Positions 38,901-63,075 of a DNA stretch of 64,000 bases are shown here, in pieces. Every line of letters begins with the position of its first letter. Within the stretch, counting starts at the first letter, position 1. Origin of the DNA: Dermatophagoides farinae (lineage: Eukaryota; Arthropoda; Arachnida; Sarcoptiformes; Pyroglyphidae); contig NC_134678.1 in NCBI RefSeq assembly GCF_024713945.1, forward strand, positions 620,001 through 684,000, given 5' to 3'. The translations under genes were made by a program, and so were the position numbers. The notes under the pieces are model-generated. The model ran no database searches. It saw only the letters and a list, made by a program, of their open reading frames with translations, and was not told where the DNA came from.

Positions 38901-41836
38901 TGATAATCAGATTGGATTTGTTTTTTTAGTGGTAAAAAAATTAAGGAAATGAATCGTCTGGAAAATTAAATTAAATTCACATTTTACTTACCATTTTTCG
39001 ATGTTTTAATATTCTTTTTCTTTTTATTTGATTGCTCTTTTGGCTGCTGTTTATTCATTTGATTGATTTCTTCATCTCTATTTGACAATTGATTGGCATC
39101 GGTATTTACTGTATGAATGATGCCAATGTTATTTAATTGTTTTTGTTGTTGTTGTTGTTGTAATAGTCGTTTATCATCTGATTTGAATTTTTCATTGTTA
39201 ATTTCAGATTTTTTCGATTTTGTTCGTTTAACAATGGCTGAACCATTTTCATTTGATTTAGGTGATTGAATAATTTTCGGTGATTTTGGTGGCGATACAA
39301 TTATCGATTCAGATTCTGTTTGTATTTCGGATTCTTTTTCCAATGTCATTGAGGATTTATTGAATGAAAATTTTGTCTTTTTCGATTCTTCTGGTACAAT
39401 CGATTTCGATTCATTTGTTTCCAATTTCGGAGATTTTGGCTTTTCATTCAGTGATTTTTGTTTGATTTTGGACACAGGATCTTCAATCAATTTCGGCGAA
39501 TGTTGTGGTTTTATTTCAGGCGATTTAGGCGGCGACAATAAAACCGGTGACATTGATTTGTCTTTGTATTTTGTTTTTGGTTTTAATTCTAGTATAAAGT
39601 GGAAAAAATGTTAACCAAAATCAACAGGATATCAACACAAACCTTCATTGGATTTTTCTACAATTCGTTTCTGTGAACTTTCACCTTCTTCCGACGTTTT
39701 CTTCGCTGTCGCTTCGTTAGGTGACAATAATGTCTTCTCGTTGTCGTTCAATTCCAATGGTTTTATTGGATCTAATTTTTCTGGAATAAGTTTAATTTTA
39801 GGAACTTTTTTCGATTCAATCTCTTTCGATTGATTATTGTCGATAACAGATTGATCATTTTTAATTTGGTTTTCATCTTGTGTTTGTTTTGGTTTTTTTC
39901 TTTTTGCCACCAAAATTTTCATTGAATTTCCATCATCAGTTGTAGGTGGTGTTTTAGGCGACAGAATTGGCAATTGAGATGTGGCCGATTTTTTCAATTG
40001 TTTCAATTTATTACCATCCGACTGAATGCTAGATTGATCAACAATTGTTAATTTATCCGGTTTTGTTTTGATTTTCTTTTTCACTTCTTTTTCTTTATCG
40101 ACGACCAATTCATTTGCAGAAATTTTCATTTCAATCATTTGATCACAATAAGGTATATCAATCACAGTGGAAAAATTTTTCGATAATTTCAATGATTTTG
40201 TTCGTTGTACTGCTCGTTTTGGTGGTTTCGTCATCATCGCTTTATCCATCGTTTCCTTGTTATTCACCATTGTTGTTGTTTGATCTTTATCTTTAATTTT
40301 TTTCACTGGTTTTCGTTTTGATTTTGGCTTCAAATCATAAGCTTTTTGTGATAATATTATCCGGTGAATTTCATCATTTTGTTGTTGAATTTGGCCATAG
40401 CCAGTGCCGGTGTTGGTGATTGTTGTCAACAATGATTCTTTTAATAAAGTCGGTTCATAATTTCGATGATGTGGGTCGATAAAATTTAGGTCATCGAATT
40501 TATTTTTAAATTCATCATCATCATCATCATTATTATTATTATTATCATCACCAATTCCGGCATCATCGTTCAAATTGAATGAACCTTTCCATCTTGTAAG
40601 ACAAGGGGTGTTGGTGGTGGTGGTGGTTAATGTTTGTTTTTCTTTTTCATCCACAAAAAAATTATTATCATTCGAAAAATTTGTCCCATTCATAGATGAA
40701 ATGTCTTTGATTGATTCTTTTTTCGTTTCTTGTTGTTGACAATTTTCAATCAACATCATTGATTCATTGTCATTATTATTATCTTCAACTTCTTTAATTG
40801 ATTCTTCAGTAATCTTGTGATTGCTACCGAAATTTTTTTTCAGTTGTTGATTATGGTGATCATATGGAATGTCCCATGAAATTGAACTACGACGATTAGC
40901 ATTCAATAATGGTGGTTTATCATGTTCACGAAATTTAATCAAAAATTTATTTCTTTCCAATCCTAATGTTGGTTGTTGCTGTTTTATCGATGATAATGGT
41001 GATCCGGATGATGATTGATCATTCGATAATGATAATGAATTATGATGTGAACCGGATGGTGATTCTTTACGTGATGCTGATGATGATGATGATGGCGGTA
41101 TTGGTGATCCAGTTCCACTGCCACCGCTACCTGAACTACGGCGATGTTCATTTCGTATCAATGATGTTGATGGTGATGATTTGCCAAATTTTTGATTCAA
41201 ATTCGATAATAATGGACGATCACGAAATTTCGGTGCATGATAAACATTAGTGAAACGATAATAATTTCCAGGTAAAATGTATGAATTTTTACTATATGAA
41301 TTTGCTGAATATTTTGTTCCATGATTAGATGATCGACTACTACTACTACTGCTGCTGTTTAAATAGCTTAAATTATCATTGAAATTTGTATAGAAATCCG
41401 TATTACGATTATTCGTTATTGGTGATGTTGATGAATATTGTGATGGACTAGTGCGGCTTGATGAACTATCACGTAGATATGCTAATCTTGGATTCGATGG
41501 TATCGTTCTCAATGGTGTTGTTGTAGTGGTTTTCGATAAACGATTCGATGAATCAAAATCAATTTCAGTGGCCAATGAAAATATACTTTTCGGTCGAAAT
41601 ATACCATCTTTTCCACGATTTAATGATGGTGAATTCAAACGTTCTGTTGATGAATTATATGTTGATGTTGCTGCTGCTGCTGATGATGATGATTGAAAGG
41701 AATGAATATTGGAAAATTTAATATTACGAAAATCGGATATGACATTTGTAGCTGGTGATGATGATGGTGAACTACGATGATAATTATGATGATGATGGTG
41801 ATGATGATGATGATAAGATGAACGATCGTTATACAT
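35985..41836 (-). CDS. Long novel-PKC-like AGC kinase with disordered N-terminus, lacking C1/C2
   Basis: Nine exons: 39643-41836, 38992-39588, 37168-37697, 37011-37102, 36837-36936, 36673-36777, 36424-36612, 36206-36346, 35985-36128; 1,363 residues. Residues 1-1030 are Ser/Asn/His/Lys-rich, almost Cys-free and without C1, C2 or HR1 domains. The kinase (about 1034-1363) has GRGSFGK (1043), Lys1065 in [22 protein letters not shown] (Asp1160), DFG (1178) and APE, then an AGC tail with ITP (Thr1337) and FQGFNYTN. It resembles PKC-delta/theta and less so PKN. The activation-loop Thr is Asn1195 (SNFCGTPEY) and the hydrophobic-motif Ser is Asn1355. Exons 1-2 join exon 3 across a 1,294-bp intron; phase 1 fits on both sides, but two separate genes remain possible. 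Confidence 0.68.
37771..37905 (-). CDS. Possible small ORF, 44 residues with one membrane helix, inside the kinase intron
   Basis: ATG at 37905 opens a 44-codon frame starting [16 protein letters not shown], then about 21 hydrophobic residues and a basic end (FYRRQSTK). Unlike surrounding frames it is not a simple-repeat translation. Three bases after its TAA comes a donor (AAG then GTTGAT, exon end 37767), 69 bp before the kinase exon-3 acceptor, the normal intron size here. Splicing would put it in frame with the kinase apart from the TAA. It could be an alternative first exon with an upstream ORF, a membrane micropeptide, or chance. Confidence 0.3.
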   Translation of the reverse strand: MRPNITRLWYIDLYLKSFVAIFILLYISFFIILIMIFYRRQSTK

Positions 41837-42801: not shown

Positions 42802-45725
42802 TCAAAGATAAAAAAATGAATCCTGTGCTTTAGGATCATGAAATGTAATCATCTGCTGTAAATGTTCAACATTCCATTCATCAGTTGATTGAATTGGATT
42901 CTTTTTCAATTCATGTAATAAATGAATTTTACATTTATATGCACAAAGATCAGCATATTTTATTGGCGTTGGTATTGATAATGGTGATGAAAAACGTACC
43001 GAATTGTAGCAAACAAGATAAGCTAGTTTATGCAATTCCGAATTGGTAAATTGTAATTGATTCTCGATGACAATATATTTGGTTGGTTTCGATGTTCCCT
43101 ACAAAGATGATTTAAAAATAAATTTTTTTTTTTAGAAAAATAAAATCACCATCATCATTATAATATACATACAAGTCTGGAAAAATGTGAATTCACATAG
43201 GCCACAGTGAAATTTGGTTCACAAATTGAATTGTCGACCACTGTACCACAAGGTACATTTCGTGTTGGTGGACCTTTTTGATTGGCATCCGAACTGGTTG
43301 GCATTGTTTTTACAAAACGTGTATGATGACGTTTCTGTACGATTATCAATGTGAATCGTATCTTCAATTTTGTTTGTTCAATCAATCGACGAATGGCTTG
43401 CAATTCAATCGTTTTCACTTGATCAAATTGACTTTCGGAAACACCATCACGAAAAATGATCAAATTTTTTGGATAGTCACCATTAATCTTTTTATATTTT
43501 TCCAACAATTCTTTGATCATTTCTGCCAATTGTTCAATAATTTCCATTGTTCTTTCACGTTTTTGTATACGAAAACAATTTACGAAATCAGTCATTTCCA
43601 CATTAGTGGTACCAACAGCAGCGGCTATTGAAACACGAAAATTTTGTGAACATTCAAAGTATCCGGGATGATTTACATCGATACCGATAATCATTGTTTC
43701 ATTCAATTGAATTTTAGTGCCAATTTGTTGTTGAAAATATCGTGGTTCAACTACAGTATTTTGACCGCCAAGATTGCCATTAACTTCAAATAAAAGATTA
43801 TTAAAATAACCACCAGGCACGTTGGCAACACGAAAACCATTTAGACATTGAATTTTCAATCCTAAATCTTTACAGCCAATACTTGATGCAGCATTATAAA
43901 TGTCGCTTGGAGTTAAATAATTATGGTGTTCCGGTACTACCACAAAACAAAATTCAATCTTACATTCAGTTTTTAACTTTTTCAAGACATTTTCAATGTC
44001 ATTCAAATTTTTTATACGTTTAAAATCCTTATATCTCAAACCCATTTGTAGATTTGAATTCATTTTTTCAGCTTCATCCACTAATCCATCAATGAAATCG
44101 TCGATTATTCCATTTGAAATTTTCTCATCAAATGAAATAAAAGCCCATGGAACAATTGATGCTGATTTTGTTATAGCACGTGGATTTCTCACCACCATTC
44201 TAGGTTTATCAAGTTGATATCCATTAAATTTTACAAGTTTATTTTGTAGAGTGACACCAAATTCTTTCAGGATGGTCGATCCAATTTTACTGATACGATC
44301 AACATATGATTGAATTTTGTTGAAAAAGGATTCTGGTTTCAATGCACATTCTTTCATGAATACCTTGTGGATATTTGGATAATTTTTAGTATTATCAACA
44401 AATTGTTTCTCATCAATATAACATAAATCCAATGGCATATAGATGTGTGGTTTTGTCATTTGCACCATTGGTAACCGTGGATTGATTTTCACTTCTGGAT
44501 AATTTTTATTGAAATAATCCAAAATTGTCATATTGTCATCATCATCACCCAATTTCATCTCATTAAGACGAGTGGCAATCAATTCTTTGATTTTATATGA
44601 ACGTTTTTGATTACCATGTTCGGTGTAGATCGATAGATTTTTAATGAATGAATTGATTTTTTTGAAATTAATTTTTTCAAAATTTGTAATATTTTCTCCA
44701 GATTTATGATCATATTCATTGATCAGATCCATTAATGTTTTACATTTTGATGAAATCAAACATTCAACTCTTGGTTGAATTACCAAACAAATGCCAACTT
44801 GTGCCATACGTGTTGATAATTCAAATCCATACACAAATTCAATGAATGACAATTCTCGAACTGATCGTGGTTGATTCATGTCAAAATAACATTGTCCACG
44901 TACGGTATAGTATTCCATGAGAATTTTAGCGAACAATGTATTCAATATATCGATAATTTGATTGGGAATTTCATTCACTTTGCCATTGTAAAAATCTTCA
45001 ATAATTTTAAGATTAATTTTTTCTTTGAAAACAATTTCCACATTTGTTTTCGGCACTGAACGATCAGGTTTTCCATTACCAACACGATATTCAAATTCAT
45101 TGACATAATCATTATCCAATTGAATCTTTTTTGTGGTGTACAGATTTTCCCAACCATTATAGATGAATGGTATATCTTGAAATAATGTTGGATTTTTCGA
45201 TAGAAATTCTTTCAAAATTTCACGTGAATTGTTACGTAGAAATTTTTCACGATTTTGTTCAGATCTTGAATCATTTTTTTGCGTCTGATTGATTGATGGT
45301 GGTTGTGAAATTTGAACATTGTAGTGATAGATTTCTTTTTCGGTTATATCCAATTTATAATAATTTCCAACCAAATTAAGTGAATTCTTTTGATCTACTT
45401 TTGGCGACAATGATCTTCGTATTGGATATTGTTGTGATTCTGGAAATTCTGTTTTTTTTTGTTATTAATTTTTCTATCAATTTTTATGCAAAATTATAAT
45501 TAACATACCCACGGGTGATGCATCGAATGATCGTTGTCGATTATCATTATTCCCGGGATAACGGTTGTTGTTATTACCGTAATTACGGCTGTTGTTATTC
45601 CCGGAATAACGGTTGTTGTTATTACCGTAATTACGGTTGTTGTTATTACCGGCAAAGCGGTCGCCACCACCACCACCACCACTAGCGAAACCACCACGTT
45701 TTGGTTTACCACGATTTTGAGACAT
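42802..45725 (-). CDS. Divergent Argonaute with altered MID pocket and DEDD tetrad
   Basis: Guide-RNA-binding Argonaute, 929 residues, exons 45509-45725, 43173-45448 and 42802-43098. An RG/Asn-Arg-Tyr repeat N-terminus (to about 70) precedes N and L1 regions, PAZ (about 330-430; DYFNKNYPEVKINPRLPMV, HIYMPLDLCYI), MID (about 510-640) and PIWI (about 655-925; IIGIDVNHP, IIFRDGVSESQF, VQKRHHTRFVK, VPCGTVVDNSI). Catalytic positions align as Asp663, Glu708, Asp740 and Asp881 (KYAD, replacing the usual His in YYAH). In MID, Tyr590 and Gln606 are kept, but positions matching human AGO2 Lys533, Lys566 and Lys570 are Ser594, Glu627 and Asn631. It ends SFFYL instead of YFA. It is an AGO- rather than PIWI-type sequence, clearly not a miRNA Ago1 ortholog. 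The start at 45725 is the first ATG; a TTG extends 9 nt upstream. Confidence 0.9.
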
Positions 45726-48102: not shown

Positions 48103-48939
48103 AGAAAAAAAAGAAATAAAATAAAAAAATTGTTTAGCAAAAGTGTCGCCGTCTATCCATTTAAAGTGTTACTTTTTTGAATTAATATTCATCAAATAAT
48201 AAGCGGCGTCGCGCCAAACTTAAAGTTAAAACAAAACAGAGAAAAAAAATTTTCTCAAAATTTTCTCTCAATCGATTGTATTGTGATTATCGATTGTTTT
48301 GTTTTGTTTTTTTGTTTTTATTTGATATGCACTAATATTTTTTCCCCCTTAAATGTATCACATTAATGGTGATCAATCAATCATCAATATATCGCAATCT
48401 TTCAATTTTTTTTCATACAAAACTAAAAACGCAATCATCATCATCATCATCATGTGTGGTGAATATTATGATGGAATGAAAGAAAATTTTGAAAAATTAT
48501 CATAAATCAAGCAAATGTTCAAAATAAAAAAATCGATTATTTAAATACTTTAAATTATACGGAATCATCTTTTTTTCTGTTTCGTTTTATTATCTCGCAG
48601 ATCAAAAAAAAAGACATTAATAATCATTGAGGTGTATTGTTGCTGCTGAAAATCATTTGATCGATAAATTGATTCCAATGAAACAGACTAGGTTTCATTT
48701 TATCTCTATAGAGAATAATCATGGAAATTCAGTAATTTTCTTGGCTCCAAGTTGATCGATTGGTCGCAATTTGTTTTTTGAAATAAAGTCTTTTTTAAAT
48801 TGATGATAAAATTGACAATAATGAAGTAATTGAAGTTTACGATAAATATATCCTAATGATTTAAGGTAGTTTAAATACTGGGAAAAAAAATTCCACATTC
48901 GTTTGTCGAATTCAAACTTGAAAAAACCTGAATGTGAAA
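48103..48939. other. Spacer between NPL and the receptor array; first upstream repeat block
   Basis: Begins with the NPL 3' flank. A small GC-rich palindrome GGCGTCGCGCC sits at 48205-48215. From about 48654 to 48861 is the first copy of a 210-bp block found again before other array genes, followed by a TTTAAATA box (about 48870) and a CATTCGTTTGTC block (48896-48907) just before gene 1. Confidence 0.6.
48654..48861 (+). repeat. Array upstream repeat, copy 1
   Basis: Begins near TTGATCGATAAATTGATTCC and ends near AATATATCCTAATGA, with internal GATCGATTGG-CGCAATTTG. Three more copies are at about 50915-51126, 51319-51526 and 54119-54333. All lie upstream of genes 1-3 of the array in the same orientation, so they are part of the duplicated unit. 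Confidence 0.8.
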
Positions 48940-50445
48940 ATGTTGTTCAAAATCAAAACATTTCTATACGATGCAATTAAACATATTGTTGAAGAAAATG
49001 GCACCGTACGATATCGTCTATTACATAGTGTTGATGTTTTGTTTTGTGTTTATTGGTTGATACGAGTTTTGTTCGTTTTATTAATGTTTCTGGATCCAGA
49101 AAGATTTCCGTTATATAGATATGATTATGCATCATTATATTTCTGGAATCATCGTAACATTCTTAATAAATTCTTTATGATCATACAAATGTTTATTACA
49201 TTGATGGAATTTTTCGCTATCAAAACATTTTTCTTTAACCGTGTAGATGCACTTTGTATTCAGATTTTTTATGATTGTATCGTATATAATACTGATCAAT
49301 ATTATAAAAGTCGAGATACGAATGAAAACATTGCAAAGAAATTGTCCCAACGTTTCGAGAATTATCAACAACAATTTGCTCATAATCATTGTTTATTATC
49401 GAAAATGTTTCCGCGATTGTTGAATCATTGGTTCAGAATTCGTGTTTGGATCGATTCATGGTTGCAATTGGATCGTGTCGATAGGAATTTGTTTGAAAAT
49501 CAAAATAAAATGCGTTTGTTTCCCAATGCAAATATCAAAAGCCGAAAACACGTTTTGTTATTCGTATTGATTATTGATTTCTGCAATCATATTCTTCACA
49601 TTTTATTGTGTAAGCATCATCATGTTATTCTAATTTAATTTAATTTTTTAATTTCTCTTTCTATTCATTCTATGGATAAAGTACTAAACAATTTCATCAT
49701 GATTACTATAATTACTCAACAAATGTTTCAATATGAATTGGTAAAAAATTCCCCGATCATGAAATTCAGCGTTATGATTGAAATAATATTATACGCATAT
49801 AATAAATTCACTCTGTTGCAAAATGCAATGATACTTTTCGGTGCAATATTTGCAAAAAATTATGTATATCAAAATCAATTGGCTTATATGCATCAAAATT
49901 TTATGAAAATTATAAAAAATTCAAAAACAAATCAGAGACAAATCAATATGTTGAAGGAACTGCGATTCATTTATATTGAACATAATACATTGGCATATTA
50001 TGTATTACATAGTGACAAATATACATTGAGCGGAACGCTTTACTATTTTGCATTGTTTAGCATACCGGTTAACGTATTATTTATTTGTGAATTAATCTTT
50101 GAAGATCTGTCGGCGCAAACAAAATTTGTATTTTATTTTGCTGTAGTGGTACATGTCATTGCTGGTTTTATTCCGTTCATAACTTTAGCACATGTTTCCC
50201 GTTCTATCCATAAAATCAAAGATTATATACCAGGTATGCAGCTACAATTGAATCGTTCGACACATATTCGAATGAAATTGAAATATGATGATCTCTATGA
50301 ACGTTTGATGTCTGGTAAAAAAATTGCTTTTACATTCGGATATCTCGGTAATCTGACTTATCGTGGGTTATTCGAAGCATTTCTTGGCTATATTGCAGCT
50401 TTCTTTATGATCATGGGTTTCTATACGCGAGAACATTCAACATGA
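48940..50445 (+). CDS. Array gene 1: seven-helix gustatory-receptor-like membrane protein
   Basis: Exons 48940-49609 and 49682-50445 (intron 72 bp, phase 1) give 477 residues. Hydrophobic segments at about 28-48, 65-88, 205-240, 252-285, 345-366, 372-398 and 455-474 give seven helices; no signal peptide. Conserved family marks are FKIKTFLYDAIKHIV, DPERFPLYRYDY, YDCIVYNTDQYYKSRDT, LFENQNKMRLFPN, IKNSKTNQRQINMLKELR and, before the last helix, LKYDDLYERLMSGKKIAFTF then GYLGNLTYRGLFEAFLGYI. No GPCR motif is present. A long helix 6-7 loop followed by a conserved KI-FTF segment just before helix 7 resembles the insect gustatory/odorant-receptor fold, so a ligand-gated chemoreceptor is inferred. The alternative is an unknown mite-specific membrane family. 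The start is ATG 48940; a GTG lies two codons upstream. Confidence 0.75.
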
Positions 50446-50626
50446 ATAATTATGATTTGATCAAATGATGATGATGATTCCATATAATTCTATTACTTTT
50501 AACCTTTAATTTTGAATCATTTGTTAATTCCATCTATGGTTCGTCTTTATTTATGTGTGTGGTAGTAATTGTAGAACAAATAAAATGATAAAAATCTATA
50601 TCTCTATGTCGGTTCTATGTGATTCC

Positions 50627-50740
50627 AATGATTTTCATAAAATCAAAGATCATATACCAGCAATGCAGCCACATTTGAAACGTTCAACACGTCTTCGTAT
50701 GAAATTGAGATATGATGAATGTTTGATGTTGCATTTACAT
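50627..50740 (+). pseudogene. Receptor 3' fragment after array gene 1
   Basis: Reads NDFHKIKDHIPAMQPHLKR then STRLRMKLRYDE, matching the helix 6-7 loop of the array proteins, then loses similarity and stops soon after. It has no first exon. It is a leftover of an unequal exchange or a dead partial copy. Confidence 0.85.
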
Positions 50741-51536
50741 TTGGCTATTGTTATGTTTTTTCATTTTTTATGGTTTATTCCAAGCATTTTTTGGTTTATC
50801 TGTATTTAATTTTTTTTCCTTAATGCGTGCATGCGTGTTACAATGAAAAATTATAAAATTTTGATCAAAAAAAGTCAGGAGTATCATCGATTGGTTTGAT
50901 TTATTGATGAAATCGAATTTGATCGATAAATTGATTCCAACTAATCATACTAGGTTTCATTTTATTTCTAGAGTATAATTTTGGAAATTCAGAAATTTTC
51001 TTTGCTCCAAGTTGATCGATTGGGCGCAATTTGTTTTTTTTTTTTGAAATAAATTCATTTTTGAATTGATGATAAAATTGACAATAATGAAGTAATGAAG
51101 TATACAATAAATATATATCCTAATGATGATCAGTAAAAAACAAAAAAAAACGGTTCATTAAAATTATTGATAAACCGATAAAAAGAAAAGAAAAAGTTTC
51201 TCTTTCATTCGATCAATCAATCATTAGTCATAAATATTTGGCAACATTCCACGAAAATTATTAAGTCATTAATAATAACTGAGGAATATTATCGATTGAT
51301 TTGATTCATTGATGAAATCGAATTTGATCGATAAATTGATTCCAAATGTGATTATATATTTCATTTTATTTCTAGAGAATAATTGTGAAAATTCAGTAAT
51401 TTTCTCTTCTCCAAGTTGATCGATTGGGCGCAATTTGTTCTTTGAAATAAAGTCATTTTTGAATTGATGATAAAATTAACAATGATGAACTATTGAACTT
51501 TAAAATAAATAAATATATCCTAATGAGAGAAGATAG

Positions 51537-51580
51537 TATAAATAGTGAATGAATGGAAAAAAGTTCTTCATTCGTTTGTT
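51537..51580 (+). promoter_or_regulatory. Candidate core promoter of array gene 2 (TATA plus initiator-like block)
   Basis: TATAAATA at 51537-51544 is followed about 32 bp later by TTCATTCGTTTGTTGTATTC. The CATTCGTTTGT block recurs before genes 1 (48896) and 3 (54392), 25-60 bp before their ATG, so it probably marks transcription start. Confidence 0.45.
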
Positions 51581-51611
51581 GTATTCAGACTAAGAAAAAC
51601 TTGAAGAGAAA

Positions 51612-53151
51612 ATGTTGTTCAAAATCAAAACATTTCTCTATGATGCAATCAAACATATTGTTGATGATAATGGCACCGTACAATATCGTCTATTGCATAA
51701 TATTGATGTTTCGCTTTATGTTTATTGGTTGATACGAGGATTAATGTTCTCATTAATCTTTATAGATCCAGAACGTTTTCCATTATATCGATATGATTAT
51801 ATATCATTATATATATGGAATCATCAAAAAATTCTTAATAAATTTTTTGTCTTGATTGTCATATTATTCATATTTACTGGATTTCTTGGTATACGAACAT
51901 TTTTCTTTAACAATGTGGATGAACTTAGCTTTCGATTATTGTATGATTGTATCGTATATAATACGGATCAATATTATAAAAGTCGAGATACGGATGAAAA
52001 TATTGCAAAGAAATTGTCCAAACGTTTCGAGGATTATCAACAACGATTTGCTCGTAATCATCGTTTATTATCGAAAATAATTCCACCATTCTTGGTGAAT
52101 CGTTTGTTCAGAATTCGTGTTTGCATCGATTCATGGTTGCAAATGGATCGTGTCGACAAGGATTTGTTTGAAAATCAAAACAAAATGCGTTTGTTTCCTA
52201 ATGCACCACTAAAAGGACGTAATTATATATTATTATTCGTATTGATTATGGATTTCTGCAATTATTGTTTGCACATTTTCATCAGTAAGTTTCATTTTGT
52301 TTTGTTAATCTTTACCACATAACAAAATGTTTGTTTTTTCTTTCATCTTTTTTCCATCCTTTTACAAAATTTTATTTTAAAAAGTGTTGACTATTTTAAT
52401 TAGCGGAGTCATAGTTATTTATTTTCAAATTTCACAATTTGATATTGTACAAAATTCATTTGTATTGAAATTATGTTTAATGATTGAAGTGATATTATTC
52501 ACACATAATACATTTGTAATGCTTCAATGTGCAATGCTACTATCCGGTACAATGTTGGCATCATTTAATGCATATTACAATCAATTGGCTTATATGAATC
52601 AAAATTTTAAGAAAATTATAAAAAATTCAAAAACAAATCAAAGACAAATCAATATGTTGAAAGAACTCCGATTCATTAATAATGAACATAATACATTGTC
52701 ATATTATATAATATATTCTGATAAAAGTACATGGAGCCAGGCGCTTTACTATTATGCATTGGTTAGCCTTCCGATTAATGTATTATTTATGTGCGAATTA
52801 ATCTTTGAAGATATGCCGGCGCAAACACAATTTGTATTCATATTGATTTCATTGATACATGCCATTTCTGGTCTTTTACCATTCATGACCACAGCACATG
52901 TTTCCAGTGCTTTTCATAAAATCAAAGATTATATACCAGCTATGCAGCTCCAATTGAATCGTTCGACACATCTTCGTATGAAATTGAAATATGATGATCT
53001 CTATGAACGTTTGATGTCTGGTAAAAAAATTGCCTTCACATTTGGCTACCTAGGTAATCTGACGTATCGCGGCTTATTCGAAGCATTTCTTGGCTATATT
53101 GCAGCTTTCTTTATGATCATGGGTTTCTATTTGCGAGAACATTCAACATGA
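51612..53151 (+). CDS. Array gene 2: seven-helix gustatory-receptor-like membrane protein
   Basis: Exons 51612-52284 and 52385-53151 (intron 100 bp, phase 1), 479 residues. Same family marks as gene 1: DPERFPLYRYDYISLY, YNTDQYYKSRDTDEN, NKMRLFPNAPLKGR and the C-terminal YDDLYERLMSGKKIAFTF. The second exon starts after TTTTAAAAAG, and the split codon reads ATG, so a GTG frame start seen there is not a real start. Most of exon 2 upstream of about codon 400 is nearly identical at the DNA level to gene 3, whereas the last 110 codons differ from gene 3 in silent positions. Intact. Confidence 0.75.
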
Positions 53152-53336
53152 ATAATTATGATTTGATCAACTAATGATGATGATGATTCTGTATAATTCT
53201 ATTACTTTTAACCTTTAATTTTGAATCATTTGTTATTTCCATATTACGTTTGTCTTTATTTATGTGTGTAGTAGTGATTGTAGAACAAATCAAATAATAA
53301 AATATATTTATATCTCTATGTCGGTTTCATGTGATT

Positions 53337-53416
53337 CCAATGATTTTCATAAAGTCAAAGATCATATATCAGCAATGCAGCCACAATTGAAACGTTCGAC
53401 ACATCTTCATTCATGA
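53337..53416 (+). pseudogene. Receptor 3' fragment after array gene 2
   Basis: Same fragment as after gene 1 (NDFHKVKDHISAMQPQLKRS then THLH), cut short by a stop at TCATGA. Its repeated presence at the same place shows that it belonged to the ancestral tandem unit. Confidence 0.85.
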
Positions 53417-53832
53417 TTCCACGTACTTACGAACCAAATTTTTTTTTTAAATAAAATTTTTTTTAAAACGCAAACAAATTTCATTGCAAGTTTATCTATC
53501 GATTTTTAGCTTTCATAATTGATGATACAGATTATGACAATTGAAATCACCAATCCAACCACATCAACAAAACCGAAAATTCTTAAATCTGATGATTTTT
53601 TTCCCAACCAGAATTTGATTTTTCTCATCGATATAATCAACAACAATCAAATAATAATCACAAACAAATTTGAATGCAAATATAAAGTGAATTGATAATA
53701 ATATGAATTCAAATAGTTCGAATAAAAATAAAAATTTATCATCTTTATCTGTGATTATCCAGAATTGAAATGAAAAAATAATATTTGAGTCTTTTTCGTT
53801 AGTGATAATTTTAAGGCATAAGGGCTCAAACC

Positions 53833-53970
53833 ATTTTCGACATTTCAATTTTCGACTTTTTTATTTTCGACATTTTTGTCTGTTCGACGTTTTTGTCGTT
53901 TCGTCTTTATTATTTTCGATCAAATATTTTCGACCATTTTGTATTCGACATTTTTATTTTCGACATTTTG
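53833..53970. repeat. Short interspersed repeats of TTTTCGACATTT
   Basis: At least eight imperfect copies of (A)TTTTCGAC(A)TTTT occur in about 140 bp, at irregular 10-20-bp spacing. No such tract occurs elsewhere in the window. Neither a transposon nor a gene can be recognised in it. Confidence 0.8.
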
Positions 53971-54444
53971 TGACAGAACCTTTTTTGGTTTATCTGTATT
54001 TGAATTTGTTCGTTAATGCACTGCATGCTCGTGTTACAATGAAAAATTATAAAATTTTGATCAAAAAAAAAGTCATTAATAATATCTGAGGACTATTATC
54101 GATTGATTCGATTTATTGATGAAAATGATTTGATCGATAAATTTATTCCAAATGAGACTATAAATTTCATTTTATTTATAGAGAATAATTGTTGAAATTC
54201 AGTAATTTTCTTTGGCTATAAAGCTGATCGATTGGGCGCAATTTGTTTTTTTTTGTAATAAAGTCATTTTTGAATTGATGATAAAATTGACAATGATGAA
54301 GTAATGAAGTTTGCAATAAATATATCTTAATGAGTAGAGGTAATTTTTTTCTGCCATGTTATCTTACCAAGAACTAAAAAAAAAAATTCTCCATTCGTTT
54401 GTCACATTCAGATGTAGAAAAACCTGCTTCCTGAATGTGAAAAA

Positions 54445-55935
54445 ATGTTGTTCAAAATCAAAACATTTCTCTATGATGCAATCAAACATATTGTGGAAGA
54501 AAATGGCACCGTACGATATCGTCTATTACGTAGTGTTGATGTTTCGCTTTATCTTTATTGGTTGATACGAGTATTAATGTTCTCATTAATCTTTATAGAT
54601 CCAGAACGTTTTCCATTATATCGATATGATTATGGATCATTATATATCTGGAATCATCGAAAAATTCTTAATAAATTTTTTGCTTTGATTCTCATATTAT
54701 TCGTATTTACTGGATTACTTGGAATGCGAACATTTTTCTTCAACAATGTCAATAAACATGGTTTTCAACTTATTTATGATTGCATCGTATATAATACGGA
54801 TCAATATTGTAAAAGTCGAGATACGGATGAAAATATTGAAAAGAAATTGTCACAACGTTTCGAAGATTATCAACAACAATTTGCTCGTAATCATCGTTTA
54901 TTATCACAAATCACACCTATTGCTAATCGCATGGTTTCATTCAAAGTTTGGCGTGATTCATGGCTAGAAATGGATCGTATAGACACAAATTTATTCGGAA
55001 AAATCAATAAAATGCGCTTGTTTCCTAATGTAACACTAAAAGGACGTAATTATATATTGTTATTCATATTGATTATCGATTTCTGCAATTATTGTTTGCA
55101 CATTTTCATCTGTAAGTTTCATTTTGTTTTTTATCACCTTATACATTACCCCATTTTATTTTAAAAAGTGTTGGTTCTTTTGATTGCCGTACTCATCATT
55201 GGTTATTTTCAACTTTTACAATTTGAAATTGTACAAAATTCATTTGTATTGAAATTATGTTTAATGATTGAAGCAATATTATTCATACATAATACATTTG
55301 TATTGCTTCAATGTGCAATGCTACTATCCGGTACAATGTTGGCATCATTTAATGCATATTACAATCAATTGGCTTATATGAATCAAAATTTTAAGAAAAT
55401 TATAAAAAATTCAAAAACAAATCAAAGACAAATCAATATGTTGAAAGAACTCCGATTCATTAATAATGAACATAATACATTGTCATATTATATAATATAT
55501 TCTGATAAAAGTACATGGAGCCAGGCGCTTTACTATTATGCATTGGTTAGCCTTCCGATTAATGTATTATTTATGTGCGAATTAATCTTTGAAGATATGC
55601 CGGCGCAAACACAATTTGTATTCATATTGATTTCATTGATACATGCCATTTCTGGTCTTATTCCATTCATAACTTTAGCAAATGTTTCCAGTTCTTTTCA
55701 TAAAATCAAAGATTATATACCAGCTATGCAGCTACGATTGAATCGTTCGACACATCTTCGTATGAAATTGAAATATGATGATCTCTATGAACGTTTGATG
55801 TCTGGTAAAAAAATTGCTTTTACATTCGGATATCTCGGTAATCTGACTTATCGTGGGTTATTCGAAGCATTTCTTGGCTATATTGCAGCTTTCTTTCTCA
55901 TCATGGGTTTCTATACGCGAGAACATTCAACATGA
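54445..55935 (+). CDS. Array gene 3: seven-helix gustatory-receptor-like membrane protein (mosaic)
   Basis: Exons 54445-55111 and 55169-55935, intron only 57 bp, phase 1; 477 residues. Family marks as in gene 1. The first exon carries a variant middle (SQITPIANRMVSFKVWRDSW), which links it to genes 4-7 rather than to 1-2. Exon 2 up to about 55660 is almost identical to gene 2; after that it matches gene 1 down to silent positions (for example TTCGGATATCTCGG). So it looks like a product of gene conversion or recombination. Intact, same C-terminus GFYTREHST. Confidence 0.75.
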
Positions 55936-57176
55936 ATAATTATGATTTGATCAAATGGTGATGATGATGATTCCGTATAATTCTATCACGTTTAACCTTT
56001 AATTTTAAATCATTTGTTATTTCCATCAAACGTTAGTCTTTATGAGTGTGTGTGTGTGTAACTGTAGAACAAACATAAGATAAAACATAAAACACAGACC
56101 TTTAGATGACACTTTAAAACAAAAGAAAAAAAAATTCACCAAAATTTTCCATCATTCGATTGTATCGTATCATGATTATCGATCAATCGATTGATAGAAA
56201 AAAAGATGCAAAAAAATTTTGAAAATCAATATAAAATGCGTTTGTTTCCCAATGCAAATCGTAAAAGTCGATCACATGTTTTGTTATTTGTATTTATTAT
56301 TGATTTCTTCAATCATATTCTTCACATTTTTTATCAGTAAGTATCATGTTTGTTTTTATTCATATATTTTAATTTAATTTTTCAAATTTCTTCTTCTATT
56401 CATTCTTTGTATAAAATACTCGTCATTATCATTGGGTGGTATATTGTGATTATTCTACAATTTTTACGATTTGAATTTGCTAAAAAAATTCTTCAATCAT
56501 GAAATTCATCATAATGATTGTAGTGATATATATTGTTCACACATAATTACAATTTTATTATTTCAATGTACAATGTTACTATCCACCACAATAATGGCTA
56601 CATATCACAATGTATATTGATTTATTCATTTAAATCGAAATTTCATTATGATTCTTAAATTCTCAAAAAAAAAAAAAAAAAAATAAAAATTCTCAACATT
56701 GTTGTCATGGTGATTGAAAAACAAAAAAATCAATCAATCAATATGAATGATTTGAAAAATGTTAAATTAATTATCGTAAAAATACAGGTAGTGAGTATTA
56801 AAGTGATCAAAATAAACGTATTCAAGGACAAAGTAATAGTATATATATTTTACTGTTCTGTATTAGTTTCATATTAATACAATAGCATAGCGTGGAACTA
56901 TTGTTCCAAATTGTTTTCAATGGATCATTGTTGACAATTCATTATATTCTAACACAGTGGATGGATGATGTAAATGTATTTTGATTCATGATTACCCCAT
57001 GGCATTTTGGAGCAGACATTGAGCATTTCTACTATTTTCAATACGTTTCAAGACATTTGAAACATTGTAGTACAGAAATATTATTCTTCATCGAACAATA
57101 AATAATTGGCTAAGATTAACAATGGTTAATTTGTCAAACTGTCGAATTCAGGCTAAGGAAAAATCTGAATGTGAAA
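55936..57176. other. Spacer after array gene 3, with a decayed receptor copy
   Basis: Conserved 3' flank, (TG)n, then the decayed copy at 56205-56770, then 400 bp of unique A/T-rich sequence. A block TGTCGAATTCAGGCTAAGG (57138-57156) before gene 4 resembles the start-site region of the other genes. The 210-bp upstream repeat is missing here. Confidence 0.6.
56205..56770 (+). pseudogene. Decayed receptor copy between array genes 3 and 4
   Basis: The end of exon 1 is readable (FENQYKMRLFPNANRKSR, then HVLLFVFIIDFFNHILHIF) with a kept donor GTAAGT at about 56338. Exon 2 begins readably near 56420 (FLRFEFAKK) but then has frame breaks and stops (NSS region, about 56490-56500; Y-stop near 56610) and a long A run (56665-56683). 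No 5' part and no C-terminal part are found. Confidence 0.85.
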
Positions 57177-58717
57177 ATGTTGTTCAAAATCAAAACATTT
57201 CTATACGATGCATTGAAACATATTGTTGAAGAAAATGGCACCATACAATATCGTCGATTGCATTATGCCGATCTTGTGCTTTATCTTTATTGGCTGATAC
57301 GAGCATTATTCATTTCATTAATCTATATAGATCCAGAACGATTTCCATTATATCGTTATGATTATGCATCATTATATTTCTGGGATCATCGTAGAATTCT
57401 GAATAAATTTTTCGTCATTATAATTTTCTTACTAATAATGATCGGTTTGCTTTGTATTAAAACATTTTATTTTCCGAAACAACATGATGATGATGAATTA
57501 CGATTTCAAGTACTGTATGATTGTATCGTTCATAATACTGATCAATATTATAAAAGCCGAGATACGGATGAAAATATTGCCATGAAATTGTCCCAACGTT
57601 ACGAAAATTATCATCAACAATTCGTTCGTAATCATCGTTTATTATCACAAATCACACCTATTGCTAAACGTGTGGTTTCATTCAAAGTTTGGCGTGATTC
57701 ATGGCTTGAAATGGATCGTGTTGATAAAATTTTATTCGAAAAAATCAATAAAATGAAGCTATTTCCTTATGCAACTTTCAAAGGACGTTCTTATATAGTG
57801 TTGTTCATCTTGTTTGCCGATCGTGTTAATTATATTGGACATTTATTATATAGTAAGTTTTTTTGTCATTTGATCTCATAAGCATTCAACAAGTTGTAAC
57901 TGAAAAATTTTTTTCCATAAAAAATTCAATCCTCTCCCAATCTCAAGTTTTCGTAACTCCAATTGCTGTTCCTATAGTTCTTTATCAACTGTTCTCTTAT
58001 GAATTGGTCAAGAATTCATTGTGGATGAAAATTACTCTAATGATTGAAACAACAATTTTCATTTATAATGCATTTCTCTTAATTCAATCAGCAATGCTTC
58101 TCGCTTGTACAATAATGTCAACATATCAAGCATTTCATAGTGGATTATCATATTTGCATCAAATATTTGTTTCAATATTGGATAAATCACGTCACCATAA
58201 TGGAAAACAAATCACCAGGAAAGATGTGCAAAATCTTGGTTTAATTTATCGACAACATAATAAATTATCTTATTATGTTTTACATGATGATAAAAATACC
58301 TGGAGTCAATCATTATACTATTATGCATTGATTAGCATACCAATCAATATAACATTGTTGTGTGAATTAATTGTGGAAGATATACCGGCACAAACGGAAT
58401 TTGTATTCATTGTAATTGCTGTTGTACATGCTATTACCGGTGTTATTCCATTTATGGCCCTGGCACATGTATCCAGTGCATTTCATAAAATCCGTGATCA
58501 TATCTTGCCTATGCAGCTAAAATTAAAACGTAATTATTTACGAACAAAATTGAAATATGATGATCTCTATGAACGTTTGATGCATGGTAAAAAAATTGCC
58601 TTTACATTTGGCTATCTTGGTAATCTGACATTTCGGGGGTTATTCGAAGCGTTCCTTAGTTATATTGCGGCTTTCTTTCTCATCATGGGTTTCTATATGA
58701 AAGAACATTCAACATGA
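57177..58717 (+). CDS. Array gene 4: seven-helix gustatory-receptor-like membrane protein
   Basis: Exons 57177-57852 and 57948-58717 (phase 1) give 481 residues; alternatively exon 2 begins after CCTATAG at 57979, also in frame, giving 11 fewer residues. N-terminus as in genes 1-3 (FKIKTFLYDALKHIVEENG), but with the subfamily features YADLVLYLYWLIRALFISL, FPKQHDDDELRF and an exon-2 insertion DKSRHHNGKQITRKDV. The C-terminus is GFYMKEHST. Start is ATG 57177; a GTG is two codons upstream. From about the middle of exon 2 through 646 bp of 3' flank it is virtually identical to gene 5. Confidence 0.75.
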
Positions 58718-59363
58718 ATAATTACGATTTGATCAAATGATGATGATTCTCTATAATTTTATTGCGTTTAACCTTTAATTATGAATCCTTTTATCGTTGC
58801 TTTCTTTCTGATCATGAGATTCTGCATTTAATTTGTTTCCATATTCATATAATGTAATAAAATGACAATTTGAAAAAAAATTTAGAAAAATTGGAAAATT
58901 TTCTTTTGAATTTCTTATCAAGTATCGATTCATTTTCTCAATGATGATCAGTAAAAAACAAAAACAATCCATTAAAATGATTGATGAACCAATAAAAATA
59001 AAAAGTTTTTCTTCCAATCAATCAATCATTTATTAGTTATAATATACTGGCAGAATTTACTAACCAACTAATTGTAGTTTGGTTTAAAAGTATTGGAAAA
59101 AAAATATTTTGTCATCCCGATGACAATTAACTTTGTTTTTTTTTTGACAAAAAACACCAACATTTAAGAGGAAAATAAAAATGAAAATTTGTTTTTGAAA
59201 AATGTCTAAAATTCATGCAAATTTCCAATTATAATCTGTAATGAGCCAAAATTCGTACTAAACGATAAGTTTTTTTTTCAATACGATAACCATAATTTTA
59301 TTCAACATTTGTTTTTTCCATTTCAAACTTTCAACAACAATAACGAAAACAATAAACGTAAAG
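58718..59363. other. Spacer 4-5 (first copy of the identical 646-bp spacer)
   Basis: Conserved 3' flank followed by A/T-rich sequence, repeated almost exactly after genes 5 and 6. A minus-strand 80-codon frame (58775-59017) is present identically in all three copies; it has no domain, and its conservation follows from the duplication. Confidence 0.7.
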
Positions 59364-60894
59364 ATGTTGTTTTATTTTCGTCATTTCATCTATAATGCAA
59401 TGAAACATATTGTTGATGAATATGGAACTATCGAATATCGTCGATTGCATTATGCCGATCTTGTGCTTTATCTTTATTGGCTGATACGAGCATTATTCAT
59501 TTCATTAATCTATATAGATCCAGAACGATTTCCATTATATCGTTATGATTATGCATCATTATATTTCTGGGATCATCGTAGAATTCTGAATAAATTCTTC
59601 GTCATTATAGTTTTATTATTAATAATGGGCGGTTTGCTTTGTATAAAAACATTTTATTTTCCAAAACAAGATGATGATGAATTCCGGTTTCAAGTTATAT
59701 ATGATTGTATTGTACGTAATACTGATCAATATAATAAAAGCCGAGATACGGATGAAAATATTGCAATGAAATTGTCACAACGTTTCGAGAATTATCAGCA
59801 ACAATTTGCTCGTGATCATCGTTTATTATCACAAATCACACCTATTGCTAAACGTATGGTTTCATTCAAAGTTTGGCGTGATTCATGGCTTGAAATGGAT
59901 CGTGTTGATAAAATTTTATTCGAAAAAATCAATAAAATGAAGCTATTTCCGTATGCAACTTTTAAAGGTCGTTCCTATATAGTGTTGTTCATCTTGCTTG
60001 CCGATTGTGTTAATTATTTTTTACATTTATTATATAGTAAGTTTTTTTTGTCATAAGCATTCAACAAGTTGTTAACGAAAAATTTTTTTTCACAAAAAAA
60101 ATTCAATCTTCTTCCAATCTCAAGTTTCCATAATTTCGATTGCTGTTCCTATAGTTGTTTATCAAATCTTCTGTTATGAATTGGTCCAGAATTCATTGTG
60201 GATGAAAATTACTCTAATGATTGAAACAACAATTTTCATTTATAATGGATTTCTCTTATTTCAATCAGCAATGCTTCTCGCTTGTACAATAATGTCAACA
60301 TATCAAGCATTTCATAGTGGATTATCATATCTGAATCAAATGTTTGTTTCAATATTGGATAAATCACGTCACCATAATGGAAAACAAATCACCAGGAAAG
60401 ATGTGCTGAATCTTGGTTTAATTTATCGACAACATAATAAATTATCTTATTATGTTTTACATGATGATAAAAATACCTGGAGTCAATCATTATACTATTA
60501 TGCATTGATTAGCATACCAATCAATATAACATTGTTGTGTGAATTAATTGTGGAAGATATACCGGCACAAACGGAATTTGTATTCATTGTAATTGCTGTT
60601 GTACATGCTATTACCGGTGTTATTCCATTTATGGCCCTGGCACATGTATCCAGTGCATTTCATAAAATCCGTGATCATATCTTGCCTATGCAGCTAAAAT
60701 TAAAACGTAATTATTTACGAACAAAATTGAAATATGATGATCTCTATGAACGTTTGATGCATGGTAAAAAAATTGCCTTTACATTTGGCTATCTTGGTAA
60801 TCTGACATTTCGGGGGTTATTCGAAGCGTTCCTTAGTTATATTGCGGCTTTCTTTCTCATCATGGGTTTCTATATGAAAGAACATTCAACATGA
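59364..60894 (+). CDS. Array gene 5: seven-helix gustatory-receptor-like membrane protein
   Basis: Exons 59364-60036 and 60125-60894 (480 residues), or exon 2 from after CCTATAG at about 60155 (in frame, 10 residues fewer). Distinct N-terminus MLFYFRHFIYNAMKHIVDEY instead of FKIKTF. Shares YADLVLYLYWLIR, DPERFPLYRYDY, YDCIVRNTDQYNKSRDT, QITPIAKRMVSFKVWRDSW, the HNGKQITRKDV insertion and the C-terminal YDDLYERLMHGKKIAFTF. It is the first of three near-identical 2.18-kb units. Intact. Confidence 0.75.
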
Positions 60895-61540
60895 ATAATT
60901 ACGATTTGATCAAATGATGATGATTCTCTATAATTTTATTGCGTTTAACCTTTAATTATGAATCCTTTTATCGTTGCTTTCTTTCTGATCATGAGATTCT
61001 GCATTTAATTTGTTTCCATATTCATATAATGTAATAAAATGACAATTTGAAAAAAAATTTAGAAAAATTGGAAAATTTTCTTTTGAATTTCTTATCAAGT
61101 ATCGATTCATTTTCTCAATGATGATCAGTAAAAAACAAAAACAATCCATTAAAATGATTGATGAACCAATAAAAATAAAAAGTTTTTCTTCCAATCAATC
61201 AATCATTTATTAGTTATAATATACTGGCAGAATTTACTAACCAACTAATTGTAGTTTGGTTTAAAAGTATTGGAAAAAAAATATTTTGTCATCCCGATGA
61301 CAATTAACTTTGTTTTTTTTTTGACAAAAAACACCAACATTTAAGAGGAAAATAAAAATGAAAATTTGTTTTTGAAAAATGTCTAAAATTCATGCAAATT
61401 TCCAATTATAATCTGTAATGAGCCAAAATTCGTACTAAACGATAAGTTTTTTTTTCAATACGATAACCATAATTTTATTCAACATTTGTTTTTTCCATTT
61501 CAAACTTTCAACAACAATAACGAAAACAATAAACGTAAAG
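60895..61540. other. Spacer 5-6 (second copy of the identical 646-bp spacer)
   Basis: Same content as the spacer at 58718-59363, including the domain-less minus-strand frame at 60952-61194. Nothing else is seen. Confidence 0.7.
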
Positions 61541-63075
61541 ATGTTGTTTTATTTTCGTCATTTCATCTATAATGCAATGAAACATATTGTTGATGAATAT
61601 GGAACTATCGAATATCGTCGATTGCATTATGCCGATCTTGTGCTTTATCTTTATTGGCTGATACGAGCATTATTCATTTCATTAATCTATATAGATCCAG
61701 AACGATTTCCATTATATCGTTATGATTATGCATCATTATATTTCTGGGATCATCGTAGAATTCTGAATAAATTCTTCGTCATTATAGTTTTATTATTAAT
61801 AATGGGCGGTTTGCTTTGTATAAAAACATTTTATTTTCCAAAACAAGATGATGATGAATTCCGGTTTCAAGTTATATATGATTGTATTGTACGTAATACT
61901 GATCAATATAATAAAAGCCGAGATACGGATGAAAATATTGCAATGAAATTGTCACAACGTTTCGAGAATTATCAGCAACAATTTGCTCGTGATCATCGTT
62001 TATTATCACAAATCACACCTATTGCTAAACGTATGGTTTCATTCAAAGTTTGGCGTGATTCATGGCTTGAAATGGATCGTGTTGATAAAATTTTATTCGA
62101 AAAAATCAATAAAATGAAGCTATTTCCGTATGCAACTTTTAAAGGTCGTTCCTATATAGTGTTGTTCATCTTGCTTGCCGATTGTGTTAATTATTTTTTA
62201 CATTTATTATATAGTAAGTTTTTTTTTTTGTCATAAGCATTCAACAAGTTGTTAACGAAAAATTTTTTTTCACAAAAAAAATTCAATCTTCTTCCAATCT
62301 CAAGTTTTCCATAATTTCGATTGCTGTTCCTATAGTTGTTTATCAAATCTTCTGTTATGAATTGGTCCAGAATTCATTGTGGATGAAAATTACTCTAATG
62401 ATTGAAACAACAATTTTCATTTATAATGGATTTCTCTTATTTCAATCAGCAATGCTTCTCGCTTGTACAATAATGTCAACATATCAAGCATTTCATAGTG
62501 GATTATCATATCTGAATCAAATGTTTGTTTCAATATTGGATAAATCACGTCACCATAATGGAAAACAAATCACCAGGAAAGATGTGCTGAATCTTGGTTT
62601 AATTTATCGACAACATAATAAATTATCTTATTATGTTTTACATGATGATAAAAATACCTGGAGTCAATCATTATACTATTATGCATTGATTAGCATACCA
62701 ATCAATATAACATTGTTGTGTGAATTAATTGTGGAAGATATACCGGCACAAACGGAATTTGTATTCATTGTAATTGCTGTTGTACATGCTATTACCGGTG
62801 TTATTCCATTTATGGCCCTGGCACATGTATCCAGTGCATTTCATAAAATCCGTGATCATATCTTGCCTATGCAGCTAAAATTAAAACGTAATTATTTACG
62901 AACAAAATTGAAATATGATGATCTCTATGAACGTTTGATGCATGGTAAAAAAATTGCCTTTACATTTGGCTATCTTGGTAATCTGACATTTCGGGGGTTA
63001 TTCGAAGCGTTCCTTAGTTATATTGCGGCTTTCTTTCTCATCATGGGTTTCTATATGAAAGAACATTCAACATGA
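61541..63075 (+). CDS. Array gene 6: near-identical copy of gene 5, acceptor region altered
   Basis: Exon 1 61541-62213 encodes the same residues as gene 5. Exon 2 ends at 63075. One extra T right after CTCAAG (about 62306) means that the acceptor aligned with gene 5 (CAAG) now gives a frameshift and an early stop. The acceptor GTTCCTATAG just downstream (exon 2 from about 62336) restores the frame and joins ATT-GTT-TAT-CAA, giving about 470 residues. Either gene 6 uses this site (and genes 4-5 may too) or it is broken. Otherwise identical to gene 5. Confidence 0.68.

Follow-up and report, generated by a model that had tools for sequence, protein, structure and literature searches.

An Argonaute of the dust mite Dermatophagoides farinae with an altered 5'-phosphate pocket and a conserved slicer motif

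Background

A clamp for the 5'-phosphate of the guide is a hallmark of Argonautes; in its AGO-type form it consists of three lysines, Lys533, Lys566 and Lys570 in human AGO2. Variants of this pocket have been described in several groups. In Drosophila Piwi, the position of AGO2 Lys566 is taken by Gln589, which holds a metal jointly with phosphates 1 and 3 and the C-terminal carboxylate of Leu843, and both other lysines (Lys555 and Lys593) are retained (PMC7015924). Flatworm Piwis are reported to have a conserved Lys to Gln change at alignment position 588 (PMC8191739), which we infer to be the same place as Piwi Gln589. The bacterial Argonautes MpAgo and PliAgo are both described as being without the usual (Y/H/R)KQK contacts. 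The MpAgo pocket is hydrophobic, has neither phosphate contacts nor bound metal, and takes non-phosphorylated (5'-hydroxyl) RNA guides in an otherwise normal geometry; PliAgo has an unrelated RHSY set and uses DNA guides (PMC9360449). The pocket has also been called divergent in the nematode WAGOs (HRDE-1, WAGO-1), which are expanded, lineage-specific Argonautes of an animal with RNA-dependent RNA polymerases (RdRPs), and many of which have no slicer tetrad. In HRDE-1, a secondary-siRNA Argonaute, the pocket contains H664 and K668. Replacement of both by Ala lowered the amount of bound small RNA about 20-fold (about 2.5-fold after normalisation), and the mutant is treated by its authors as defective in small-RNA binding (PMC10834429). 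The published trees contain no clear WAGO orthologues from Acari.

In D. farinae, an RNA-seq-aided annotation identified eight confident Argonautes, two canonical ones with a DEDH motif and six divergent ones (DfaAgo3-8; GenBank KY794593-598) with DEDD. The Piwi clade was reported absent, and DfaAgo3-8 formed a clade of their own in the published tree (Mondal et al. 2018, PMC5805368). The same study counted four RdRPs, all judged to be processive and without the loop that is tied to unprimed short products. The siRNAs from a master locus were described as 5'-monophosphate and Dicer-product-like. About half of the siRNAs tested were digested by Terminator, a 5'-monophosphate-specific nuclease, and the rest were resistant; the resistant siRNA gave no migration shift of the triphosphate kind, and dephosphorylated siRNA lagged (PMC5805368). 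In our reading, this resistant half offers the best opening for a second class of guides. RdRP1-dependent small RNAs of a tick have been described as 5'-monophosphate (PMC10062562). In D. pteronyssinus, an Ago2-type gene (derpt12g00670, 68.9-fold) and an RdRP gene (derpt18g01450, 24.9-fold) are strongly male-biased (PMC12105342), which suggests a male germline Argonaute-RdRP pair.

Results and discussion

Gene structure and domains

The gene described here lies in a window of 64,000 nucleotides (C2:620001-684000) of the D. farinae genome (62.4 Mb in 22 contigs), and is referred to below as the window Argonaute. Its coordinates, and those of the residues discussed, are listed in Table 1. Both introns are of the GT-AG type, and the three exons join into a frame of 929 residues that is free of internal stops and closed by a stop codon; an alternative acceptor for exon 2 at 45439 makes the protein three residues shorter and changes only the residue numbering. 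The Pfam models ArgoN, PAZ and Piwi all match above cut-off, the closest PDB sequence match is human AGO2 (HMMER, 1.4e-43), and the top fold matches of an AlphaFold model of exon 2 are AGO structures. By its N, PAZ and PIWI domains the protein is a eukaryotic Argonaute of the AGO side. No relatives were confirmed in one scan each of bacterial/archaeal genome contigs and of viral contigs. As for the species, one locus of this genome matches the structurally solved allergen Der f 21 without a difference along 111 successive residues, and the numbers of Argonaute and RdRP genes agree with those published for D. farinae; of at least seven group-2 allergen loci, two were compared with the PDB, and Der f 2 itself was not among them.

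Eight long Argonaute genes of this genome were compared: an AGO1-like and an AGO2-like gene, five divergent paralogues denoted C10, C4a, C4b, C8b and C8a, and the window Argonaute. The models of these five divergent paralogues begin after the first exon, and the gene counts are lower bounds, as they derive from the best candidates of a genome search. An intron just 5' of the pocket Tyr codon, present in all five other divergent paralogues, is absent from the window Argonaute. N-terminal tails vary: they are GN-rich in the window Argonaute and RGG-like in C10 and C8b, and C4b starts with tandem copies of an RG/ER-rich unit some 21 residues long. Elsewhere in the window, the six ORF pairs of a tandem array apparently encode two-exon multi-pass membrane proteins, similar by eye to arthropod gustatory-type receptors. 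The final two pairs are almost identical to each other, and neither ORF of the first pair has a Pfam match.

Table 1. Positions of the window Argonaute, its pocket and predicted catalytic residues, and other features (positions in the window unless a contig is given)
Feature	Position	Strand	Remarks
Window Argonaute, whole gene	42802..45725	-	3 exons, 929 aa; ArgoN, PAZ and Piwi matches (Pfam)
Exon 1	45509..45725	-	start codon, Gly/Asn-rich N-terminal tail
Exon 2	43173..45448	-	N, PAZ, MID and most of PIWI
Exon 3	42802..43098	-	last part of PIWI with the predicted fourth catalytic residue; protein ends in FFYL
Tyr590 codon	43896..43898	-	AGO2 Tyr529; kept
Ser594 codon	43884..43886	-	AGO2 Lys533; lysine lost, Ser also in C8a
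Gln606 codon	43848..43850	-	AGO2 Gln545; kept
Glu627 codon	43785..43787	-	AGO2 Lys566, Drosophila Piwi Gln589; lysine lost, Glu also in C8a
Asn631 codon	43773..43775	-	AGO2 Lys570; lysine lost, Lys in C8a
Asp663	43677..43679	-	predicted first catalytic residue
Glu708	43542..43544	-	predicted second catalytic residue
Asp740	43446..43448	-	predicted third catalytic residue
Asp881	42949..42951	-	predicted fourth catalytic residue (AGO2 His807); motif DEDD
Lys886	42934..42936	-	AGO2 Arg812 position; still basic
Leu929	42805..42807	-	C-terminal; carboxylate a candidate second metal ligand, by analogy with Piwi Leu843
Short Argonaute-like genes	C2:6.49-6.50 Mb: L030 3611-5789, 6048-8197; L031 2959-5098	-	locus minus-strand positions
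Short Argonaute-like gene	C2:~11.5 kb: L032 5993-7925	-	locus minus-strand positions
AGO1-like gene	L024, C3:4600500-4607500
AGO2-like gene	L023, C9:3399500-3407500		single long open frame
C4b, N-terminal repeat array	L028, C4:4702500-4708800, near 1354-2119
ORF, 504 aa	33254-34768	+	no Pfam match at E 0.001
ORF, 734 aa, adjoining the window Argonaute gene	39632-41836	-	no Pfam match at E 0.001
Tandem array of six ORF pairs	48934-63075	+	230-239 aa + 237-284 aa

The 5'-end pocket

A sequence-only reading of the gene had proposed that the pocket keeps its Tyr and Gln residues and has lost all three clamp lysines. The residue numbers involved (Y590, S594, Q606, E627 and N631) were all reproduced from the rebuilt three-exon protein, and the replacements were recovered in three ways. 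First, the HMMER alignment with human AGO2 chains is gap-free over the stretch Tyr529-Lys570 and places S, E and N opposite K533, K566 and K570, respectively. Secondly, a MAFFT alignment with the seven other long Argonaute genes, in which the AGO1-like row is only partial, yields identical pocket columns. Finally, a structure prediction was run on exon 2 alone (model residue = protein residue minus 73), and its secondary structure fits the alignment: Y590 and S594 lie in a helix (513-527, model numbering here and below), Q606 in the next strand (531-536), and E627 and N631, spaced i to i+4, in a later helix (547-558). This layout agrees with that of the AGO2 MID domain. The model has a mean pLDDT of 71.4 (81-83 around Y590 to Q606, 66-69 around E627 and N631) and a pTM of 0.47, and its domain packing is poor, with TM scores of 0.33-0.46 to the 50 structures listed.

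Since HMMER, MAFFT and the exon 2 model give the same residue pairing, misalignment was rejected as an explanation. Sequencing error was likewise rejected for S594 and E627, because both recur in the sister gene C8a; N631 is known from one assembly. The MID domain has been reported missing from many acarine Ago2 proteins (PMC7659050), and a missing domain was also considered and rejected: the Pfam Mid model finds no match in the N-PAZ-MID exons of C10, C8a and C8b either, two of which retain the pocket lysines, and in the AGO1-like gene its match stops before the pocket. The pocket is therefore genuinely altered, and the window Argonaute lacks the AGO-type clamp. Thr544 of AGO2 has also been lost in both sister genes (Ile in the window Argonaute, Leu in C8a). 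Some basic residues are present nearby: Lys604 (window Argonaute only) and Arg612 (common to the sister) are candidate substitutes on sequence grounds, and Lys886 occupies the column of AGO2 Arg812. The column has Lys in both sisters and Arg in all five other rows covered.

Distribution among the paralogues

At the columns of AGO2 529/533/545/566/570, the AGO1-like gene, C10, C4a, C4b and C8b read YKQKK, the AGO2-like gene reads HKQKK (His at Tyr529, with the lysines kept), C8a reads YSQEK and the window Argonaute YSQEN. All three lysines are thus present in six of the seven other long genes, the Ser and Glu are common only to the window Argonaute and C8a, and N631 is private to the former. 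These two genes are sisters in the eight-row tree (support 100/99, 42.6% identity), in which a branch with 100/100 support sets the six DEDD copies apart from the two canonical rows, the placement of C10 being uncertain (79/84). By its DEDD letters and its grouping apart from AGO1 and AGO2, the window Argonaute belongs to the divergent dust-mite clade. The genome contains at least two canonical-type and six DEDD long genes, like the published set of six divergent beside two canonical Argonautes, and the window Argonaute very probably corresponds to a member of DfaAgo3-8 (Mondal et al. 2018, PMC5805368). For these proteins that study was found to discuss the slicer motif and the tree. The pocket is altered here in just two of the six. 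The clade and its DEDD tetrad are thus already published; a mention of the 5'-end pocket of divergent mite Argonautes was not found in the literature searched.

Alteration of the pocket as a trait of the whole divergent clade was rejected, as four of its six copies keep the clamp. The economical reading is that Ser and Glu arose once, in the common ancestor of the window Argonaute and C8a, and that N631 would have followed later in the window Argonaute only.

Selection and divergence

If the window Argonaute were a redundant copy under relaxed constraint, its pocket could be decaying without any new function. Six divergent paralogues could indeed be partly redundant, and the window Argonaute has lost one lysine more than its sister. 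Nevertheless, we consider such decay highly improbable: the Ser and Glu are common to sisters at 43% identity and were most likely fixed before these split, DEDD is found in both, no internal stops occur in the window Argonaute or in C8a as modelled from the N domain on, and synonymous change exceeds non-synonymous change between them (NG86, dN 0.53, dS about 1.64 and near saturation). The window Argonaute is under constraint.

The changes in the pocket were compared with those elsewhere, using as reference the columns of residues 540-831 that are invariant in six other Argonautes (C8a being left out as the sister). Five of these 48 MID-PIWI columns belong to the pocket. The window Argonaute has changed 8 of the 48, and three of the 8 are pocket lysines; three of the four invariant lysines have been lost. 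C8a has changed 5 of the 48, two of them in the pocket. Hypergeometric tests for enrichment in the pocket gave p = 0.027 for the window Argonaute and p = 0.077 for C8a, both post hoc; because the test was chosen after the data had been seen, it is only suggestive of a pocket change in excess of general divergence. The charge of the surrounding segment differs as well: residues 570-650 contain 4 Lys + Arg versus 6 Asp + Glu, compared with 7 to 11 Lys + Arg and 2 to 7 Asp + Glu in the seven others, all of which have an excess of Lys + Arg.

Slicer motif and loading

The putative DEDX catalytic tetrad of the window Argonaute comprises D663, E708, D740 and D881, and DEDD is found at the corresponding positions of all five other divergent paralogues. 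In the AGO1-like gene, an Asp was observed at the expected second catalytic residue (AGO2 Glu637); D. farinae Ago1 has been published as DEDH (PMC5805368). Beyond the eight long genes, four short Argonaute-like genes were found on the contig of the window Argonaute, three of them clustered. Their N-terminal pieces have no match to Pfam PAZ at E values up to 1, and the alignment shows the third catalytic Asp to be absent from all four. Three of them keep all three lysines, with Phe, Tyr and Phe at Tyr529, and the fourth keeps K566 only. Pocket and slicer thus appear to be separable, with the clamp reduced and the motif kept in the sister pair and the reverse in three short genes.

These observations bear on whether the window Argonaute loads guides at all. 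It could be a poorly loading or non-loading protein that acts via protein contacts, as a decoy, or only transiently on loaded duplexes. The binding defect of the HRDE-1 H/K to Ala mutant (PMC10834429) speaks for this, as the corresponding lysine is replaced here, along with one or two others of the pocket; because that change cut the amount of bound RNA, Ser594 alone could be damaging. On the other hand, the intact gene, the DEDD letters at the four catalytic positions, the 40 of 48 conserved columns retained and dN < dS support a functional slicing Argonaute, a slicer would have no obvious use in a protein that stays unloaded, and the short genes mostly show the opposite combination. Poor or absent loading is therefore quite unlikely.

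The guide 5' end

From the loss of the lysines, the sequence-only reading had derived a secondary-siRNA Argonaute that binds 5'-triphosphate or capped RdRP products. Its premises stand: the pocket is altered, four RdRP loci are present in this genome, and the divergent Argonautes and the absence of a Piwi clade are borne out by the published annotation (PMC5805368). The presence of RdRPs, the Terminator resistance of about half of the tested siRNAs (PMC5805368) and the male bias of both an Ago2-type gene, of whichever paralogue, and an RdRP gene in D. pteronyssinus (PMC12105342) would fit such a function. The step from lost lysines to a triphosphate or capped guide, however, is opposed by several lines of evidence. 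HRDE-1 retains and requires its H664/K668 pair (PMC10834429), whereas the window Argonaute has Tyr590 and Ser594 at those columns and, unlike many WAGOs, a DEDD motif. Wild-type human AGO2 has been reported to bind a 5'-triphosphate hairpin RNA more tightly than siRNA (PMC12424427). Since HRDE-1 needs its His/Lys pair and human AGO2 accepts a triphosphate, binding of triphosphate ends does not require loss of lysines, and extra phosphates should want more rather than less positive charge. Moreover, the D. farinae RdRPs lack the loop for unprimed products and the triphosphate shift was absent (PMC5805368), tick RdRP1 products are 5'-monophosphate (PMC10062562), and four of the six divergent paralogues have the full clamp. 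We regard a guide of this type as very unlikely.

Alternatively, the guide could carry a 5'-hydroxyl and be held independently of phosphate in the manner of MpAgo; Glu627, which would repel a phosphate, could then accept a hydrogen bond. The loss of three lysines together with a net acidic MID segment is most simply matched by such an end, and MpAgo demonstrates that non-phosphorylated guides can be taken in an otherwise normal geometry (PMC9360449). Yet the MpAgo pocket is hydrophobic (PMC9360449), whereas that of the window Argonaute, with Ser, Glu and Asn as replacements, is polar to acidic and keeps the Tyr, the Gln and Lys886. In addition, K570 is kept in C8a, and the Terminator-resistant siRNA of D. 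farinae did not migrate differently, so that an abundant 5'-hydroxyl class was unseen at the locus tested (PMC5805368). A 5'-hydroxyl guide is accordingly unlikely.

A further comparison is with the PIWI clade (Piwi, Siwi), where, as in the window Argonaute, the position of AGO2 Lys566 holds a possible metal ligand and the C-terminal residue is Leu. The residue is Gln in PIWIs and Glu627 here, chemically close but different. The two other lysines kept by PIWIs are replaced by Ser594 and Asn631, and sequence and fold are closest to AGO structures; because neither other lysine is present, the pocket is not of the PIWI kind. The window Argonaute ends in FFYL and C8a in LFYV, and of the four divergent copies that keep the lysines three end in Cys and one in Ala (the AGO2-like gene also in Cys), a pattern of two versus four within one tree that may be due to chance. 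By analogy, a metal ion is a chemically attractive but incomplete model, and a metal bound there may be neutralised by the Glu together with the carboxylate of the C-terminus, which counts against it.

The guides of the nematode Argonaute ERGO-1, which is AGO-related, are 5'-monophosphate 26G-RNAs. Its MID domain, altered like that of the window Argonaute, is described as degenerate and yet must bind the 5' end of small RNAs (PMC6468775), so an altered MID domain does not necessarily imply a different guide end. We tentatively favour the explanation that the window Argonaute loads short guides with ordinary ends, held more weakly or differently, and can slice, although this is far from assured. 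As one of six DEDD Argonautes of a dust-mite-specific clade, it would probably serve as effector for siRNAs produced by Dicer. In the ancestor shared with C8a the clamp would have been partly dismantled (K533 to Ser, K566 to Glu), and the window Argonaute would then have lost K570 as well. The guide 5' end could be held by stacking of its base on Tyr590 and by contacts from Gln606 and Lys886, and possibly also, much as in PIWI and prokaryotic Argonautes, by a divalent metal that links phosphates 1 and 3 to Glu627 and the carboxylate of the C-terminus.

Implications

A bolder proposal, which we consider doubtful, is that the window Argonaute and C8a represent a slicing animal lineage with a non-AGO end chemistry (a 5'-hydroxyl, or a metal held by Glu627 and the C-terminus) and a guide class of its own. 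We know of no animal AGO in which the guide end is held in either of these ways.

The paralogues form a matched set within one genome, with four DEDD copies that have the clamp, one without two of the lysines and one without all three. All six are slicer-competent by motif, and the short genes mostly show the reverse, a broken slicer with the clamp kept. A comparison of bound RNAs across this set would test directly how far the clamp decides the choice of guide, in an animal that is reported to use siRNAs in place of lost piRNAs.
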